Below, piece by piece: positions 1,268 to 16,950 of a stretch of 33,739 nucleotides of DNA. The position numbers and the translations under genes are program-made. A model generated the notes under the pieces. It saw only the letters and a program-made list of their open reading frames with translations. It was not told the DNA's origin and searched no databases. This DNA is from a virus: IMG/VR virus record IMGVR_UViG_3300025770_000057, positions 1 to 33,739 of that record. One strand, 5' to 3'. Position 1 is the first letter of the stretch, and the number at the start of each line of letters is the position of its first letter.

Positions 1268-1621
1268 TTAATTTGATAGTGGATTTTTCGTAGATACCTT
1301 TATCTCTTCTATTTGAACTTTTAATAATTCGATTTCTTTTTTATTTATTTGACTAATAGTATGACCATGCTCAGTATCATGTGTATGTTCTACTACGTCA
1401 TGAGTATGTGATGTGTCAACATTCTCTAGTTTATTAACTTTTTCTTCTAATACTGCAAGCTTACTTTCAATTGCTGATGTATCAACAACAGACTCTTCTT
1501 TAGCTTCTATTGCATCTAATTTAGTCACAATTTCGCCATATTTAACAAAACCTCCGCCTATTGCAACTATCGCTGCAATCAAAGCTGCTATTCCTGCAAG
1601 TTGATCTTTAAGTTTGCCCAT
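1268..1621 (-). CDS. Membrane-anchored coiled-coil protein with His-rich segment (117 aa)
   Basis: An N-terminal hydrophobic segment (about residues 9-27, GIAALIAAIVAIGGGFV) is followed by an acidic coiled coil (KLDAIEAKEES to VLEEKVNKLEN). A histidine cluster comes next around residues 72-88 (SHTHDVVEHTHDTEHGHT), then a second helical part (KKEIELLKVQIEEIK). The His-Thr-His-Asp pattern could bind Zn or another divalent metal, as comparable HxH motifs do in phage fibre tips and metal transporters; this is inference. The start overlaps the 3' end of the 544-aa secreted gene by 14 nt. Like the next gene it is a one-span anchor with an external coiled coil, so the two may act as a pair, for example in lysis. 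Confidence 0.72.
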   Translation of the reverse strand: MGKLKDQLAGIAALIAAIVAIGGGFVKYGEIVTKLDAIEAKEESVVDTSAIESKLAVLEEKVNKLENVDTSHTHDVVEHTHDTEHGHTISQINKKEIELLKVQIEEIKVSTKNPLSN

Positions 1622-3242
1622 TTTTTAACATCTCCAATTCATACAAAAGCCGTTGCTTCTTAAGATTAAGTTCTCCAAGTTTTCTTGCTTTGATCTCCAT
1701 CTTATCATTTTGGATATAAGTTGCAAGACTCTTATCTGCATAAATTAACCTACTATCAAATATAGGTAATTGCTCTAAATATATGTTTTTTGGCTTATAA
1801 AACTGTGTATTTGCGTATGCATTTAATGATGCTTGTTCACTTGTCATTGCATCCATTTTTATAATATTTTTAATAGCTAAATTTTTAGAAATATCTTTAA
1901 TATCTTTGTCAACTTTGTCCATTATTCTGGCAAGATTTTTGACAATAGCTTTTTTCTGTTGTATCTTTTTTTGTTGGGCAAGCTTCTTAGTCTGAACAGC
2001 GGACTTTCTAGGAGTCTCGCTATCAGATTTCTCTTCTTTAACTTCTTCTTTTTCTTCATTAGTTGCTTCTACCATTTTAGTAGGCTCTTCTTCAACAGCT
2101 TCTTCTTTAGCCATCTCTGTGTTTTCTTCTTCTATCATTTCTTCTTCAGCCATTTCAGTGTTTTCTTCTTCAGCCATTTCTTCTTGGAATGTTTCAGTCA
2201 TCGCAGGTTTCTCTTCCATCATCTCTTCTTCTTGAAAAGTTTCAGCCATTGCAGGTTTCTCTTCCATCATCTCTTCTTCTTGAAAAGTTTCTCCGTTCTC
2301 GGTTGATTCCATGAATATGGGTTCATCTTCTGTGACGAATGATTCCTCTTCCTGAGAAACCATCGGTAAGAATGTTGCAACGATTTCGTTTGATTCTTCA
2401 TAAATTTCCTCTATCATTTCCTCGTTTTCAAAGGTAAGCATTGGGCCATCTTCAAACGCCATACCTTCATCTTCCATAGAAAAGTCTTGCTCTTCCATAA
2501 AGAAATCCTCTATAAATTCTTCTGCAAATGTAAATGTCTCCATTTCCATAGGCATCTCCATTTCAAACTGTGGCTCCTCGCTAAAAGTAAAAGTCTCTTC
2601 TTCAAAAGTAAATTCCTCCATATCTTCAAAGATTTCTTCTTGTAAATCTTCAAAAATAGTATTTATTTCATCTTGAATAGACTGATCTATAGGTTCTGAT
2701 TCATAAGCGACTGTAAGAGAAGGCTCTTTTAAGTCTACAGAATAGTGACTTGTGCTATTTGAAGTGTCTGTAAAATTATATCTAACATCTATATCATAAT
2801 CAGTTTGAGTATTTCGAGATACAGAAAGAGTGTCAGCGCCAGATTGATAGCTACCACAGTTAATACTACCACAACCAGTAGAGCTATATGTCCGAATTTG
2901 TGTTGTTGCTTCACCATCTGCTCCTGTTATTGTGACTGTTGAGGTGACTGTGGAATCATAGTTATTCCAATGCCAATATTTAAATGAGTGATTAGTAGTA
3001 AAGCCATCTTGTAGTTGAGGTTCTGTTAAATTTGCGTCGTCTTTTAAACTTATATCGTCAGATTGTATATATGTATTATTAACTGCAGCTACAACACCAT
3101 TACCATGTCTTTGAGTCGCAGTACCAGACCATTTGGAAGAAAAATCTTGGCTAAGTAAATTATTTGTTGTTGTTTCTTCACTTTTTATGGAAGTTGTAAG
3201 GATTAACATAATCAGCAAACTTATTAACGCTGTATATCGCAT
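1608..3242 (-). CDS. Secreted protein with Glu/Met-rich repeats (544 aa)
   Basis: A signal peptide (residues 1-21, core ALISLLIMLIL) leads into a Ser/Thr/Asn-rich domain of about 155 residues with a cysteine pair in GCGSINCG. This part is duplicated at 1-495. From about residue 185 to 410 the protein is extremely acidic and methionine-rich, built on degenerate EEE-x-M units; two near-identical 16-residue units are EEEMMEEKPAMAETFQ-like. A basic, helical C-terminal domain follows (QTKKLAQQKKIQQKK, then KARKLGELNLKKQRL). The ribosome site is AGGAGGA. The 5' end overlaps the 33-aa membrane peptide ORF. Charge separation (acidic middle, basic end) suggests an extended or self-associating exported protein. 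Function is unknown; envelope disruption, receptor masking or metal binding are all speculative. Confidence 0.82.
   Translation of the reverse strand: MRYTALISLLIMLILTTSIKSEETTTNNLLSQDFSSKWSGTATQRHGNGVVAAVNNTYIQSDDISLKDDANLTEPQLQDGFTTNHSFKYWHWNNYDSTVTSTVTITGADGEATTQIRTYSSTGCGSINCGSYQSGADTLSVSRNTQTDYDIDVRYNFTDTSNSTSHYSVDLKEPSLTVAYESEPIDQSIQDEINTIFEDLQEEIFEDMEEFTFEEETFTFSEEPQFEMEMPMEMETFTFAEEFIEDFFMEEQDFSMEDEGMAFEDGPMLTFENEEMIEEIYEESNEIVATFLPMVSQEEESFVTEDEPIFMESTENGETFQEEEMMEEKPAMAETFQEEEMMEEKPAMTETFQEEMAEEENTEMAEEEMIEEENTEMAKEEAVEEEPTKMVEATNEEKEEVKEEKSDSETPRKSAVQTKKLAQQKKIQQKKAIVKNLARIMDKVDKDIKDISKNLAIKNIIKMDAMTSEQASLNAYANTQFYKPKNIYLEQLPIFDSRLIYADKSLATYIQNDKMEIKARKLGELNLKKQRLLYELEMLKNGQT
2184..2279. 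repeat. Two 48-bp tandem repeats in the Glu/Met-rich region
   Basis: Two adjacent 48-bp units (2184-2231 and 2232-2279) differ at only a few bases, and a partial third unit continues from 2280. Each encodes 16 residues of the acidic region of the secreted protein (EEEMMEEKPAM core). The length is a multiple of three, so copy-number change keeps the frame. Confidence 0.85.
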
Positions 3243-6240: not shown

Positions 6241-6418
6241 TTTTTTTCTCCTTATAGTCGTTATATTCTTTTATTAATTTTTCTGAAGGGTGCCATACAT
6301 CAACAGCACAATGACACTCAGGACATGATAAGTTACTCACTATATCATAATCCTCATTATCCTCCGTATCGTGATCTCCACCCCATATTAACTCTGTATC
6401 ACAGTGCCAGCAGTTCAT
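6233..6418 (-). CDS. Small zinc-ribbon protein (61 aa)
   Basis: Two CxxC knuckles, C3-WH-C6 near the start and C32-PE-C35 (SCPECH), separated by an acidic loop, define a probable zinc ribbon. The rest is a short charged helix (EKLIKEYNDYKEKK). The gene overlaps the SET-domain gene stop by four bases (ATGA) and the DNA polymerase start by 8 nt, so it is translationally coupled to the polymerase. Small zinc ribbons next to replication genes may bind DNA or proteins of the replication machinery; that role is inferred only from context. Confidence 0.75.
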   Translation of the reverse strand: MNCWHCDTELIWGGDHDTEDNEDYDIVSNLSCPECHCAVDVWHPSEKLIKEYNDYKEKKNV

Positions 6419-6807
6419 TTAGTTCTCTCCTTTGTTTGTCTTACTGATTCTTGGTAAGATTCCTCTAATTCTTTTTCCTCTTTTTTAGATTCTTCTAAAA
6501 AATCTTTTTCTATAGTGTAGAAAGTATATTTTAATGTCAATTCTTCTCCATTCTTAATATTTCTTAATGTTAATAAATTCCATTTGTCCGTGACAGAACC
6601 TTCGGCCCTCATTTCAACTTTGACACAATTAGCATTTTCATCACAATTAATAAAACCACCTAATGGCATTCTGAAAATTTCACCATCAACTTTTATATGG
6701 GTGGTTCCTAAGTTTGTTCCTTGAGCAATGCCCGCTGTTGCAAAAAGCCCTAAACCATTGATTAAAGAGGGTTTTATAGTAAGGCGCGGAGGTAATGGAT
6801 TATACAT
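6415..6807 (-). CDS. SET-domain protein, putative protein-lysine methyltransferase
   Basis: I chose ATG at 6807, which overlaps the upstream stop by 8 nt, rather than the TTG at 6825. The first 100 residues carry SET features in order. There is a GxG turn at 18-20 (INGLGLFA). The core FIN at 52-54 and NC at 60-61 correspond to the N-H-S-C-x-P-N S-adenosylmethionine site. The C-terminal GEELTLKY at 87-94 carries the tyrosine expected in the active site. A charged Glu/Lys helix follows from about 105. SET enzymes methylate lysines on proteins; a target could be host or phage replication or nucleoid proteins. It lies within the replication operon between DUF3310 and the zinc ribbon. The histidine of NHS is replaced, so activity is likely but not certain. 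Confidence 0.82.
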   Translation of the reverse strand: MYNPLPPRLTIKPSLINGLGLFATAGIAQGTNLGTTHIKVDGEIFRMPLGGFINCDENANCVKVEMRAEGSVTDKWNLLTLRNIKNGEELTLKYTFYTIEKDFLEESKKEEKELEESYQESVRQTKERTK

Positions 6808-7015
6808 CTGGGTAGTCTCTTTCAAGTATCATTTCTAAAAAATGTATTGCTTTTAAAATATCTTCCTTCTTTCCTTTTAGTCTGTGGCGACATATATATT
6901 TTATAGCGCATCCTTCCGGAAAAAGCAATTCATTCTCTACAACAAATTTACTTGGTTGAATTTTAAATTTTTGGTAGTGTGATCCTCCGTGTTGTTTGTC
7001 CCATACGTTGCTCAT
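6800..7015 (-). CDS. DUF3310 family protein (71 aa)
   Basis: The sequence matches the DUF3310 pattern: HY at 13-14, IQPSKF at 19-24, then LLFPEGCAIKYICRH at about 30-44, ending with KKEDILKAIHFLEMIL. The family is common in phages and resembles part of the nucleotide kinase gp1.7 of T7-like phages, so a role in nucleotide metabolism is possible. At 71 residues it is near the family's usual size. It starts on the overlap with the 28-aa membrane peptide stop and its end overlaps the SET gene by 8 nt. It is a cytoplasmic helical protein within the replication operon. Confidence 0.88.
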   Translation of the reverse strand: MSNVWDKQHGGSHYQKFKIQPSKFVVENELLFPEGCAIKYICRHRLKGKKEDILKAIHFLEMILERDYPDV

Positions 7016-13907: not shown

Positions 13908-13959
13908 AAAATGTAGGACATACGCGCGAGGCGTTGTGATTTTCGAAACCTACTATTTT
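13908..13959. terminator. Candidate bidirectional terminator between convergent genes
   Basis: AAAATGTAGG (13908-13917) can pair with CCTAC-T-ATTTT (13949-13959) with one bulged T. A smaller hairpin, ACGC/GCGT (13922-13934), lies in the loop. The A- and T-rich flanks suit both directions. The position, between the SNF2 stop and the hsp20 stop, is where a two-way terminator is expected, but the long loop makes the call weak. Confidence 0.35.
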
Positions 13960-14360
13960 ACAGAAATTTTCTTTGGCTTCTTGTTTTCAGGTGGATCGTA
14001 TTTCAATTCCACTTTCAACATTCCATCCTCAAGCCTAGCTCCACTGCATTCAACATACTCTGACAACTGAAGTTGTTTTTTAAATGCACGTTTAGCTATA
14101 CCTCTATGAACAAAGTCTTCTTTATCTTCAGAATTTTTTCCTTCGATAGATAGGACTCCGTCTTGCACCTGGACATCAATGTCTGACTTCTTATAGCCAG
14201 CCACTGCCATCTCTAGTGTGTATTTATCTTCACCTGCTTTCTTTATATTATAATGCGGAAAGCCTGCGTTTATATTTGGTAGTCGATGAAATCTGTGAAA
14301 GAAATTCTCGAAACCAATTGCGTTGTTTAGGAAATTGTTTAAATTTATTAGATCAGTCAT
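13953..14360 (-). CDS. Small heat shock protein Hsp20 (alpha-crystallin domain)
   Basis: An ATP-independent holdase chaperone of 135 aa. The N-terminal arm has aromatic-rich FENFFHRFH and FPHYNIKK at about 34-41. The alpha-crystallin domain runs from about 43 to 122 (YTLEMAVAGYKKSDIDVQVQ, GVLSIEGK, then AFKKQLQLSEYVE, LEDGMLKVELK). The tail PENKKPKKISV carries the I-x-V anchor for oligomers. It is closest to the IbpA-type class. Phage Hsp20 genes are known in cyanophages and other marine phages, where they probably protect virion or replication proteins during assembly. It has a strong ribosome site (AAGGAGGT) and its own candidate promoter at 14419-14446. Confidence 0.95.
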   Translation of the reverse strand: MTDLINLNNFLNNAIGFENFFHRFHRLPNINAGFPHYNIKKAGEDKYTLEMAVAGYKKSDIDVQVQDGVLSIEGKNSEDKEDFVHRGIAKRAFKKQLQLSEYVECSGARLEDGMLKVELKYDPPENKKPKKISVK

Positions 14361-14446: not shown

Positions 14447-14641
14447 GGCTAAATGATTAATTAAACTATATATTAAAAAAGCCATGGCAGTGATTAATGC
14501 TCCTGAACATGTTAATAATATCTTCTCGAGTCTCTTTACTCGTTCTTCTATTTGATGTATTTTTTTATGTGTTAATTTCTGCATAATTCTGCAAAGTTTT
14601 TCGTGTGATTCTATTCTTTGTAATGCGTTACCTTTTGGCAT
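14441..14641 (-). CDS. XhlA/holin-like coiled-coil membrane protein (66 aa)
   Basis: A basic, heptad-like helix (LCRIMQKLTHKKIHQIEERV, KRLEKIL) occupies residues 16-43, and one transmembrane segment follows (GALITAMAFLIYSLI, about 47-61). This helix-then-anchor layout is that of XhlA-type proteins, which act with a holin in lysis by some Bacillus phages, and of several small phage holins. It starts on the TAATG overlap with the 769-aa virion protein and is the last gene of the virion operon, where lysis genes are often found. No endolysin lies beside it, so the lysis role stays tentative. Confidence 0.6.
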   Translation of the reverse strand: MPKGNALQRIESHEKLCRIMQKLTHKKIHQIEERVKRLEKILLTCSGALITAMAFLIYSLINHLAL

Positions 14642-16950
14642 TAAATTAACCTATTTTCTACTTGTCTTAATACTTCTTTATTAAACCCATTTAATTCTAA
14701 CCCAGCATTGTGTAAGAAACCTTTAGCTATACCATCGCCATTGTAGTCTGCAAATTCAATGTCTTTAATAAATATTCTTCTGCCTGTTGTATCTAATGAA
14801 TATACAACGGGTATCTTGTCGATCTTAACAGATATTGGACTGTCTTGAACCATTATAAATTTGCCATCTTCTTTCACATAGTGACTTCCTGCAACTGTAA
14901 CACCTTTGTAATCATGTATCTCATCAGTTGCTTTAAATTGGAATACACCTGTAACTTCTCCACCTTTAGTATTGTCTCCCAATTGAATTTCTTTAATTCT
15001 TTTCTCAGATCCATCGGCCATTTGTACACGCGTGTTTGGATCAAAACAAAATCCACCGTAATCTGATTCACCGCTGCTTGAAGATCTACCACCGGAACGA
15101 TCACCTTCTCCGCCACCGCCTTGGTTTCGTCTAGCTGCTTCTCTTCTAGCTGCCGCTAGTCTGTCAATCTCTGCTTGTCTTCTAATTTCATTTTGTCGAG
15201 TAACTTCTGCTCTTTGGTTAGCTGCTCTTCGTTCAGACTCTCGTCTCTCGGCTGCTATTTGTTCTTGCATTACTCTTTGAGCTGCTGCTTGTTCAATTGC
15301 TGCTGCTTCAGCATCAAAAGCCGATGTTGTCGGCGCATCTTGTGAAATGTCTATATCATAATCATCACCCATTGTTTGCCAATCTGTAATATAATCTGGT
15401 GGATAAGTATCCCATCTATTTGTTGCTGGTTTTATTATTCCTGTTGGTGTAGTTGGTTCAACCATATCGTAATGTTCATCGTAACCGATTAAGTCATCTT
15501 CTATTACTGGTGAAGTATCTAGCATCTCGCTGCCCGAATCATCGTCAGCTGATTGTATGCCAGCGTCTACTGCTTCTTGTAAATTAATTGCATCTTGTTC
15601 TTCTTTAGTAACTAAATCACTTGTATCATCTAAAAAACCAGCCTCTCCTGATCCTAATGTTATACCAGCTGTTTTTGTAATTGGATCATATTCTGTTATA
15701 GTATCACCGCCTGCAGCTCTTGCTACTGTATTTAAATTTTCTTTTAATGCTTCTTCTCTTTGACCTAGTTTAGTAGGCTCTCCCGTATCAGGATTTAATT
15801 TTGGAGTGCCGTCTGCATTATAGAAACTACCATTATACTTTTCATTTTTAGTTTTTTCTAATGTAGATAGTCTATCAACTATAGATTCTTGTATTGTACC
15901 ACCACCTACTGATATGTCACCTATTCTTATACCTGTTTCACCTGGACTATATCTAGCCATTACATTTTCTGGTGTGTCGTAATCTAATCCTACTTGTTGA
16001 ATTCTACCAATATCATCAAGAGTAACTCCTTCTTCTTCAAATTGATCTGAAACTAATTTTTGTTGCGCTCCACTAGCTGATTCTGCTCCGCCTATAAGAT
16101 CTATTGCTGTACCTAATAAAGGTATTCCTAAAGCTGCTTTGCCTGCTAAATTTAAAATAGCTGTTCCAGCCATATTACCTATATCTATTCCTTTATCTTT
16201 AAGATCTGTAAAGAAATTACCTACATCTTGTCCAGTTTGAACAAATTTATCTCTTAAAGCTTCCCACTGAGCTGGATCTTTTTGTTGTTCAAAAGTTTGA
16301 CCTAGTACTGCATTTTGATCAGCGATACTTCTTGGTGTTTGATAAGGTTGTCCTGTTGTAGGATTTATGCCATAAGGAGAACCTTGTGTTTCTTGTTCTT
16401 CAGGAACAATTCTTGGATCTCCAGTTGGATTACCTAAATCCACTTGATCTAAATCTATATCTTCTAAAGAAGCACCACCTGCTGCTCCTGAGACTAAAAA
16501 AGGATCACTTGAAACAGGTATCTGATTAAATGCATCCATTTCTTCTTGTGTAACTGGCATCTCGCCTGGAGCTACAACAGGATCGCCTGGTGCTCCTTGC
16601 ACTCCAATACCTTGATCTAATAAATTTTGTTCGAAAGGAGTATTTTTTGGACTGTCAACGTCAAAACCAGGTAATGTTGCTTCACCTCCTCCGCCACCGC
16701 TACCGCCAGGTGTTGTTGCTGGTGGTGTTACAAAATCATCTTGCGCTGCATCGAATCCACCGCCTAAGTAAAGATTATATAAGTCTTGGTATCTATTGTA
16801 ATCTGTAGTCGCAGATTTAATTCCTTCAAATTCTGGTACAGAGGAAAGAGCATAAGGACTTCCTTGATATACGTCAGTCCCTTGAATCCCCGCCTCTAGC
16901 TCCGCAGCTATTGGATCTTTTTTATATAGAGATGTATATTTTTCAGCCAT
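14641..16950 (-). CDS. Virion-module protein with C-terminal Hint (intein-like) domain (769 aa)
   Basis: The N-terminal 540 residues are acidic, Gly/Pro-rich and mostly low complexity, with a short hydrophobic stretch (AGTAILNLAGKAALGIPLLG, about 260-280). An Ala/Arg/Glu helix (about 550-612) and a Gly/Ser linker follow. From C635 (GFCFDPNTRVQM) to N748 (GFLHN) is a 114-residue Hint fold with the block-B histidine H690 (AGSH) and terminal His-Asn. The residue after N748 is alanine, so trans-esterification with a +1 Cys/Ser/Thr cannot occur. Cleavage at C635 or N748, as in bacterial intein-like (BIL) domains, is more likely than splicing. It is the last large gene of the virion operon and may be an internal or ejected protein that is self-processed. 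Confidence 0.8.
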   Translation of the reverse strand: MAEKYTSLYKKDPIAAELEAGIQGTDVYQGSPYALSSVPEFEGIKSATTDYNRYQDLYNLYLGGGFDAAQDDFVTPPATTPGGSGGGGGEATLPGFDVDSPKNTPFEQNLLDQGIGVQGAPGDPVVAPGEMPVTQEEMDAFNQIPVSSDPFLVSGAAGGASLEDIDLDQVDLGNPTGDPRIVPEEQETQGSPYGINPTTGQPYQTPRSIADQNAVLGQTFEQQKDPAQWEALRDKFVQTGQDVGNFFTDLKDKGIDIGNMAGTAILNLAGKAALGIPLLGTAIDLIGGAESASGAQQKLVSDQFEEEGVTLDDIGRIQQVGLDYDTPENVMARYSPGETGIRIGDISVGGGTIQESIVDRLSTLEKTKNEKYNGSFYNADGTPKLNPDTGEPTKLGQREEALKENLNTVARAAGGDTITEYDPITKTAGITLGSGEAGFLDDTSDLVTKEEQDAINLQEAVDAGIQSADDDSGSEMLDTSPVIEDDLIGYDEHYDMVEPTTPTGIIKPATNRWDTYPPDYITDWQTMGDDYDIDISQDAPTTSAFDAEAAAIEQAAAQRVMQEQIAAERRESERRAANQRAEVTRQNEIRRQAEIDRLAAARREAARRNQGGGGEGDRSGGRSSSSGESDYGGFCFDPNTRVQMADGSEKRIKEIQLGDNTKGGEVTGVFQFKATDEIHDYKGVTVAGSHYVKEDGKFIMVQDSPISVKIDKIPVVYSLDTTGRRIFIKDIEFADYNGDGIAKGFLHNAGLELNGFNKEVLRQVENRLI

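Follow-up and report, generated by a model that had tools for sequence, protein, structure and literature searches.

A C-Terminal Hint Domain without Block G, Exchanged as a DNA Cassette between Virion Genes of Marine Phages, Is a Candidate for N-Terminal Self-Cleavage

Our computational analysis of a phage virion-module protein revealed a C-terminal Hint (Hedgehog/intein) domain that keeps the N-terminal catalytic residues of inteins and lacks block G. Marine, pelagiphage-like phages exchange its DNA among their virion genes as a cassette bounded by Cys1 and the stop codon. From the computed fold, residue pattern, missing block G, C-terminal position and cassette exchange we infer both a cleavage and its purpose: the domain probably severs itself from the preceding protein at the F634–C635 bond. 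In the open-access literature we found no account of phage virion proteins that carry Hint cassettes at the C-terminus.

Results

The Gene and Its Genomic Setting

The window, by which we mean the whole stretch of DNA analysed, is a linear IMG/VR virus record of 33.7 kb, and the domain lies in an uninterrupted open reading frame on its minus strand (Table 1). In the INPHARED set, the nearest cultured relatives are the Pelagibacter phages HTVC027P and HTVC023P, with the uncultured 023Pt_psg01 equally near; the window's helicase is 66.5%, 40.3%, and 64.9% identical to theirs, respectively. The Hint-protein gene comes directly after that of a 1376-aa protein with 37.9% identity to a "putative structural protein" of HTVC027P. 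The first-pass annotation was right to see a C-terminal Hint domain in a protein of the virion module. Residues 1–634 comprise low-complexity stretches, a hydrophobic stretch (residues 258–290), and an Ala/Arg/Glu-rich probable helix, and yielded no matches in Pfam and PHROG searches.

Other minus-strand genes of the window include one for an Hsp20 protein (13953–14360; phrog_432, E = 6e-38), two genes downstream of the Hint-protein gene, and one for a SET-domain protein (6415–6825; Pfam PF00856, above cut-off). Two tandem paralogues (1–495 and 1608–3242) with a signal-peptide-like start are 84% identical over 152 aa, the second running on into Glu/Met-rich repeats.

Table 1. Features of the Hint-protein gene, in window positions
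Feature	Positions	Strand	Remarks
Whole gene, 769 aa (82.6 kDa), encoding a virion-module protein that ends in a Hint domain	14641..16950	-	
N-terminal region, residues 1–634	15049..16950	-	Variable, often unrelated among relatives
Gly/Ser-rich linker, residues 609–634, ending G-G-F634	15049..15126	-	
Mobile DNA cassette, 405 bp	14644..15048	-	DNA homology edges at the C635 codon and the stop codon
Hint core, residues 635–735	14746..15048	-	AlphaFold2 model; superpositions with Z 12–14; Pfam Hom_end_hint below cut-off
C635, block A Cys1, proposed nucleophile of an N-S acyl shift	15046..15048	-	Invariant in relatives
H690, block B His	14881..14883	-	Invariant in relatives
V716–Y736, equivalent of blocks F and G, VYSLDTTGRRIFIKDIE-F-A-D-Y; D735 at the catalytic-Asn position	14743..14805	-	
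H747-N748, earlier candidate for block G	14707..14712	-	Unconserved, outside the fold
Tail of ~34 aa, residues 736–769	14644..14745	-	Two low-confidence helices after the fold

Hint Fold and Retained N-Terminal Residues

The predicted structure is that of a true Hint fold, with a likeness far beyond chance. Our confident AlphaFold2 model was built from 41 diverse sequences and has a pLDDT of 83.6 overall and above 90 for most of domain residues 1–100; 91%-identical relatives had given a pLDDT of 40, and the remedy was to add subgroups retrieved with a degenerate DNA pattern. The model superimposes on inteins, BILs, and Hedgehog with Z scores of 12–14 and 1.5–2.1 Å over 98–103 residues. Over domain residues 1–101/103, the individual matches include T. 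thermophila BIL2 (6y75; Z 14.1, 1.5 Å), MchDnaB-1 (6riy; Z 14.1), Hedgehog (1at0; Z 13.1), and a C. thermocellum BIL (2lwy; Z 12.7). Matches to the Pfam Hint models begin at residues 632–635, all below cut-off.

That C635 and H690 are in place had been noticed in the first-pass annotation; both prove to be the exact block A and block B residues of the fold, kept in 141/141 distinct full-length domains at identities to the window down to ~32%. They belong to 19 near-invariant columns of the domain alignment over that range. At the block B Thr position (687) the window's group has Ala and other subgroups Ser; the block F Asp is replaced across the 141 domains, with Ser taking its place in the window's subgroup, and replacement of the block F His is nearly universal. 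The block B Thr and block F Asp assist the N-terminal step of inteins (PMC4031507), and the Ala and Ser in the window's subgroup would count against such a step.

Absence of Block G

Superposition of domain residues 1–101 stops at the terminal residue of gp41-1 (125), MchDnaB-1 (145), Mxe GyrA (198), and Mtu RecA (440), positions that we take to be the last residues of these inteins. Because the superposition ends there, D735 stands at the position of the catalytic Asn. The surrounding residues, F733-A734-D735-Y736, include neither His nor Asn, and therefore all of block G is gone, the +1 nucleophile included, whereas the first-pass annotation had considered that nucleophile alone to be missing. 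Across the 141 domains the block G positions read [A/G/T/S]-Asp and never His-Asn, with Asp at the catalytic-Asn position in 140 and Asn in none. The residue that follows is Tyr or Phe, so the Cys, Ser, or Thr found at +1 in inteins is lacking, and the domain always closes the protein, leaving no C-extein. When the domain was compared with a type-A-like BIL by HHalign, only block A aligned confidently, and for this reason the argument on block G rests on structure comparison and conservation.

The pair H747-N748, followed by Ala, had earlier been proposed as the C-terminal site of a BIL-like domain that would free a short tail after N748. The letters are indeed present, and that much of the proposal stands. 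They do not form an intein C-terminal motif: position 747 in 62 distinct close relatives is occupied by Ala (28), Thr (14), Ser (6), Asn (5), His (4), and others, and the pair (domain residues 113–114) falls in a low-confidence helix of the AlphaFold2 model beyond the Hint core, 12 residues past the end of the fold. We rejected H747-N748 as block G on these two grounds; its "HN" is a chance occurrence, and cleavage after N748 is very improbable indeed.

Junction and Tail

The residues just before Cys1 are conserved in a linker that otherwise varies (mean entropy of 3.0 bits at −13 to −30): among 57 distinct sequences of the window's group, −1 is Phe, Tyr, or Trp in 52 and −3 is Gly in 53. This pattern looks like what would be expected if the F634–C635 bond is a substrate. 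It also bears on the suggestion that the domain is a catalytically dead Hint fold that serves for structure or binding at the C-terminus of a virion protein. In favor of this suggestion one may cite the replacement of the block B Thr, block F Asp, block F His, and block G in the window's subgroup. A dead fold would sit poorly with the conservation of −1 and −3, which lie outside the domain, and with a Cys1 and block B His that stay invariant among the 19 near-invariant columns down to ~32% identity, and we judge this explanation improbable.

The tail is conserved inside the close group and completely different between subgroups. It overlaps with DYNGDG (residues 735–740; window 14731–14748), a D-x-N-x-D-G pattern resembling a partial Ca-binding loop of the EF-hand/dockerin kind, which begins at the Asn-equivalent D735, is invariant in the 62 close relatives, and is missing from other subgroups.

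A Mobile DNA Cassette

Across 141 matching stretches, the median start of DNA homology to the window cassette is 4 nt ahead of the C635 codon, and the median end is 10 nt past the last sense codon. In 123 of 290 phage pairs, DNA homology extends no further than 30 nt from the domain. In one such comparison (L046 versus L048), DNA identity is 93.8% from exactly the Cys codon, and the two genes occupy different places in their genomes. Fast-evolving flanks could by themselves produce such confinement, and we therefore ran controls on synonymous identity and tree topology. Over the expectation from codon usage, the excess of synonymous identity is 0.37–0.38 in the cassette versus 0.07–0.13 in three neighboring genes of the same phage pairs; selection on DNA or RNA could explain part of this high value. 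The trees of the cassette and of the gp10-like protein reject each other (delta lnL 527 and 6144, SH p = 0) and have 14 of 46 splits in common.

Distribution of Relatives

Relatives of the last 135 residues are encoded by 129 IMG/VR stretches, the best 80 of the 129 at ≥84% identity; sister groups with ~32–41% identity to the window were reached by degenerate patterns and alignments. The Hint domain is always C-terminal, behind N-terminal regions of 65–1735 aa that are often mutually unrelated. Pfam and PHROG searches of these regions were uninformative except for one locus (L112:3539–4684), in which a lambda gpI-like tail assembly protein (phrog_32, E = 1.1e-46) carries a sister Hint domain. 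The Hint gene follows a gp10/stabilization-like gene in 97 loci, some of which are overlapping views of one contig, and a giant structural gene, as in the window, in six. At the usual gene position, HTVC027P encodes gp76, which has no Hint domain and aligns weakly with the N-terminal region of one relative (E = 3.6e-5), up to 3 aa before that relative's Cys1. Such an alignment would fit the idea of a mature protein devoid of the Hint domain.

Neither the protein nor the domain has a match among the cultured phages of the reference set at E thresholds of 1e-3 and 1e-2; at E up to 10 only fragments appear, many of them in known intein-bearing genes. Two weak matches to a sister domain (E 0.6–0.8) were set aside, that in Vibrio pVp-JHP1101 because the region is untranslated and that in Caulobacter CcrSC because it lies on the strand opposite to the CDS. 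Two pattern-based scans of bacterial and archaeal genomes returned zero relatives; these scans need exact peptide patterns, and absence from such genomes is thus unproven. A further pattern scan recovered the known loci and none beyond them.

Tandem Arrays with Canonical BILs

In some relatives, a canonical BIL with Cys1, TxxH, and HN lies directly upstream of a window-type domain. These upstream, type-A-like BILs have Lys after the HN in 29/29 cases and Ser at −1 in 28/29, and the DNA edges of their cassettes are just as sharp (121 of 202 pairs). In virion-module proteins, we observed type-A-like HN-Lys BILs ahead of the window-type domain at L058:2761-3198, L071:4295-4732, L180, L182, and L207:5001-5864; L207 has three Hint domains in series, two of the HN-Lys kind and then one of the window type. 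At three further loci (L178:3637-4974, L197:217-2262, and L202), an HN-Lys BIL and a Gly linker are followed by another small C-terminal domain near a Cys, with starts such as CTMMN... or CTELN..., as if it were an alternative to the Hint domain.

Discussion

We propose the following model for the window protein. The domain would have kept the N-terminal half of the intein machinery, Cys1 and the block B His, and lost the C-terminal half, the His-Asn of block G. C635 would attack the F634–C635 peptide bond by an N-S acyl shift, and the resulting thioester would then be resolved by water, a thiol, or another nucleophile. The 634-aa virion protein would thereby be parted from a 135-aa fragment of Hint domain plus tail, with neither a C-terminal cut nor splicing. 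We place self-cleavage at this bond because the retained parts permit only the first step of the intein reaction, as in type B BILs and Hog. Cleaving rather than splicing, with a 634-aa N-terminal product, had already been predicted in the first-pass annotation, and we concur; the expected by-product changes, from a short tail to the whole Hint domain with its tail, there being no second site.

How would the thioester be resolved? A specific nucleophile, either a lipid or an amine of another virion protein, might take up the N-terminal protein in a covalent bond, as in Hedgehog, with the ~34-aa tail acting like the substrate-recognition part of Hog. Preservation of the N-terminal half-reaction alone is a trait shared with Hog, 1at0 is among the best fold matches, and a conserved, group-specific tail stands behind the fold. 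The acceptor is hypothetical, however, and the tail is wholly different between subgroups and modeled at low confidence, so that we consider such a transfer unlikely. Hydrolysis of the thioester appears more likely than transfer to an acceptor.

What is the relevance of a self-cleaving domain at the end of so many different proteins? Because the cassette passes between unrelated phage proteins as one exact unit, it looks like an interchangeable, self-removing tag; self-removal would allow one cassette to be carried by many different proteins. We tentatively suggest, as a possibility to which we give rather less than even credence, that these are mobile "terminal inteins". Such Hint cassettes would cleave themselves off, lack a homing endonuclease, be recombined onto the 3′ ends of unrelated virion genes, be tolerated because the domain removes itself, and stack in tandem with HN-Lys BILs. 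In the close group, over half of the domain is strongly conserved, which suggests a selected role besides self-removal. On the suggestion in the first-pass annotation that self-processing could time maturation or entry, our results weigh neither for nor against.

Most descriptions of BILs concern bacterial proteins. In the present case, virion genes of abundant marine phages exchange two Hint families as exact DNA cassettes whose edges coincide with the predicted self-processing boundary. Provided that they are active, they would form a natural plug-in system: a single small domain would trim whichever protein carries it, with a bearing on the maturation of virion proteins and on the persistence of intein-like elements without homing enzymes. 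Compact C-terminal self-cleaving tags are also potential reagents.

The window domain can be set against several known systems. Ig-like and similar promiscuous domains likewise occur as a single module on unrelated phage virion proteins. Unlike the window cassette, whose edges coincide with a predicted self-cleavage site, those domains are not self-processing. The domain shares with inteins such as gp41-1, MchDnaB-1, and Mxe GyrA the fold, the anatomy of blocks A and B, and a superposition that ends at their last residue. In contrast to inteins, it has no His-Asn, +1 nucleophile, C-extein, or homing endonuclease, and it closes its protein instead of interrupting a conserved one. Hog (1at0) has the same fold and no C-terminal Asn chemistry, and performs only the N-S shift (PMC7664689), the one step predicted for the window domain; the latter differs in being part of a phage protein, in which we found no sterol-recognition region, and in its hypothetical acceptor. 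Phages of this kind also carry type A BILs as cassettes of their own, in some cases immediately before a window-type domain (L058, L071, L180, and L207). These BILs end in a His-Asn that the window domain lacks, followed here by Lys (29/29). Type B BILs have no block G and cleave without splicing (PMC4031507, PMC7765530). The window domain resembles them in its Hint fold, its N-terminal Cys motif and block B His, the lack of an intein-like block G, and its place in variable, non-conserved proteins (PMC4031507, PMC7765530). With blocks A and B present (the block B Thr and block F Asp/His being replaced) and block G absent, the type B BIL is the nearest class, an assignment made by motif content. 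What sets the window domain apart from type B BILs is its occurrence in virion-module genes of phages, its invariably C-terminal position, the near-invariant Asp (140/141) at the Asn position, and its exact DNA cassette.
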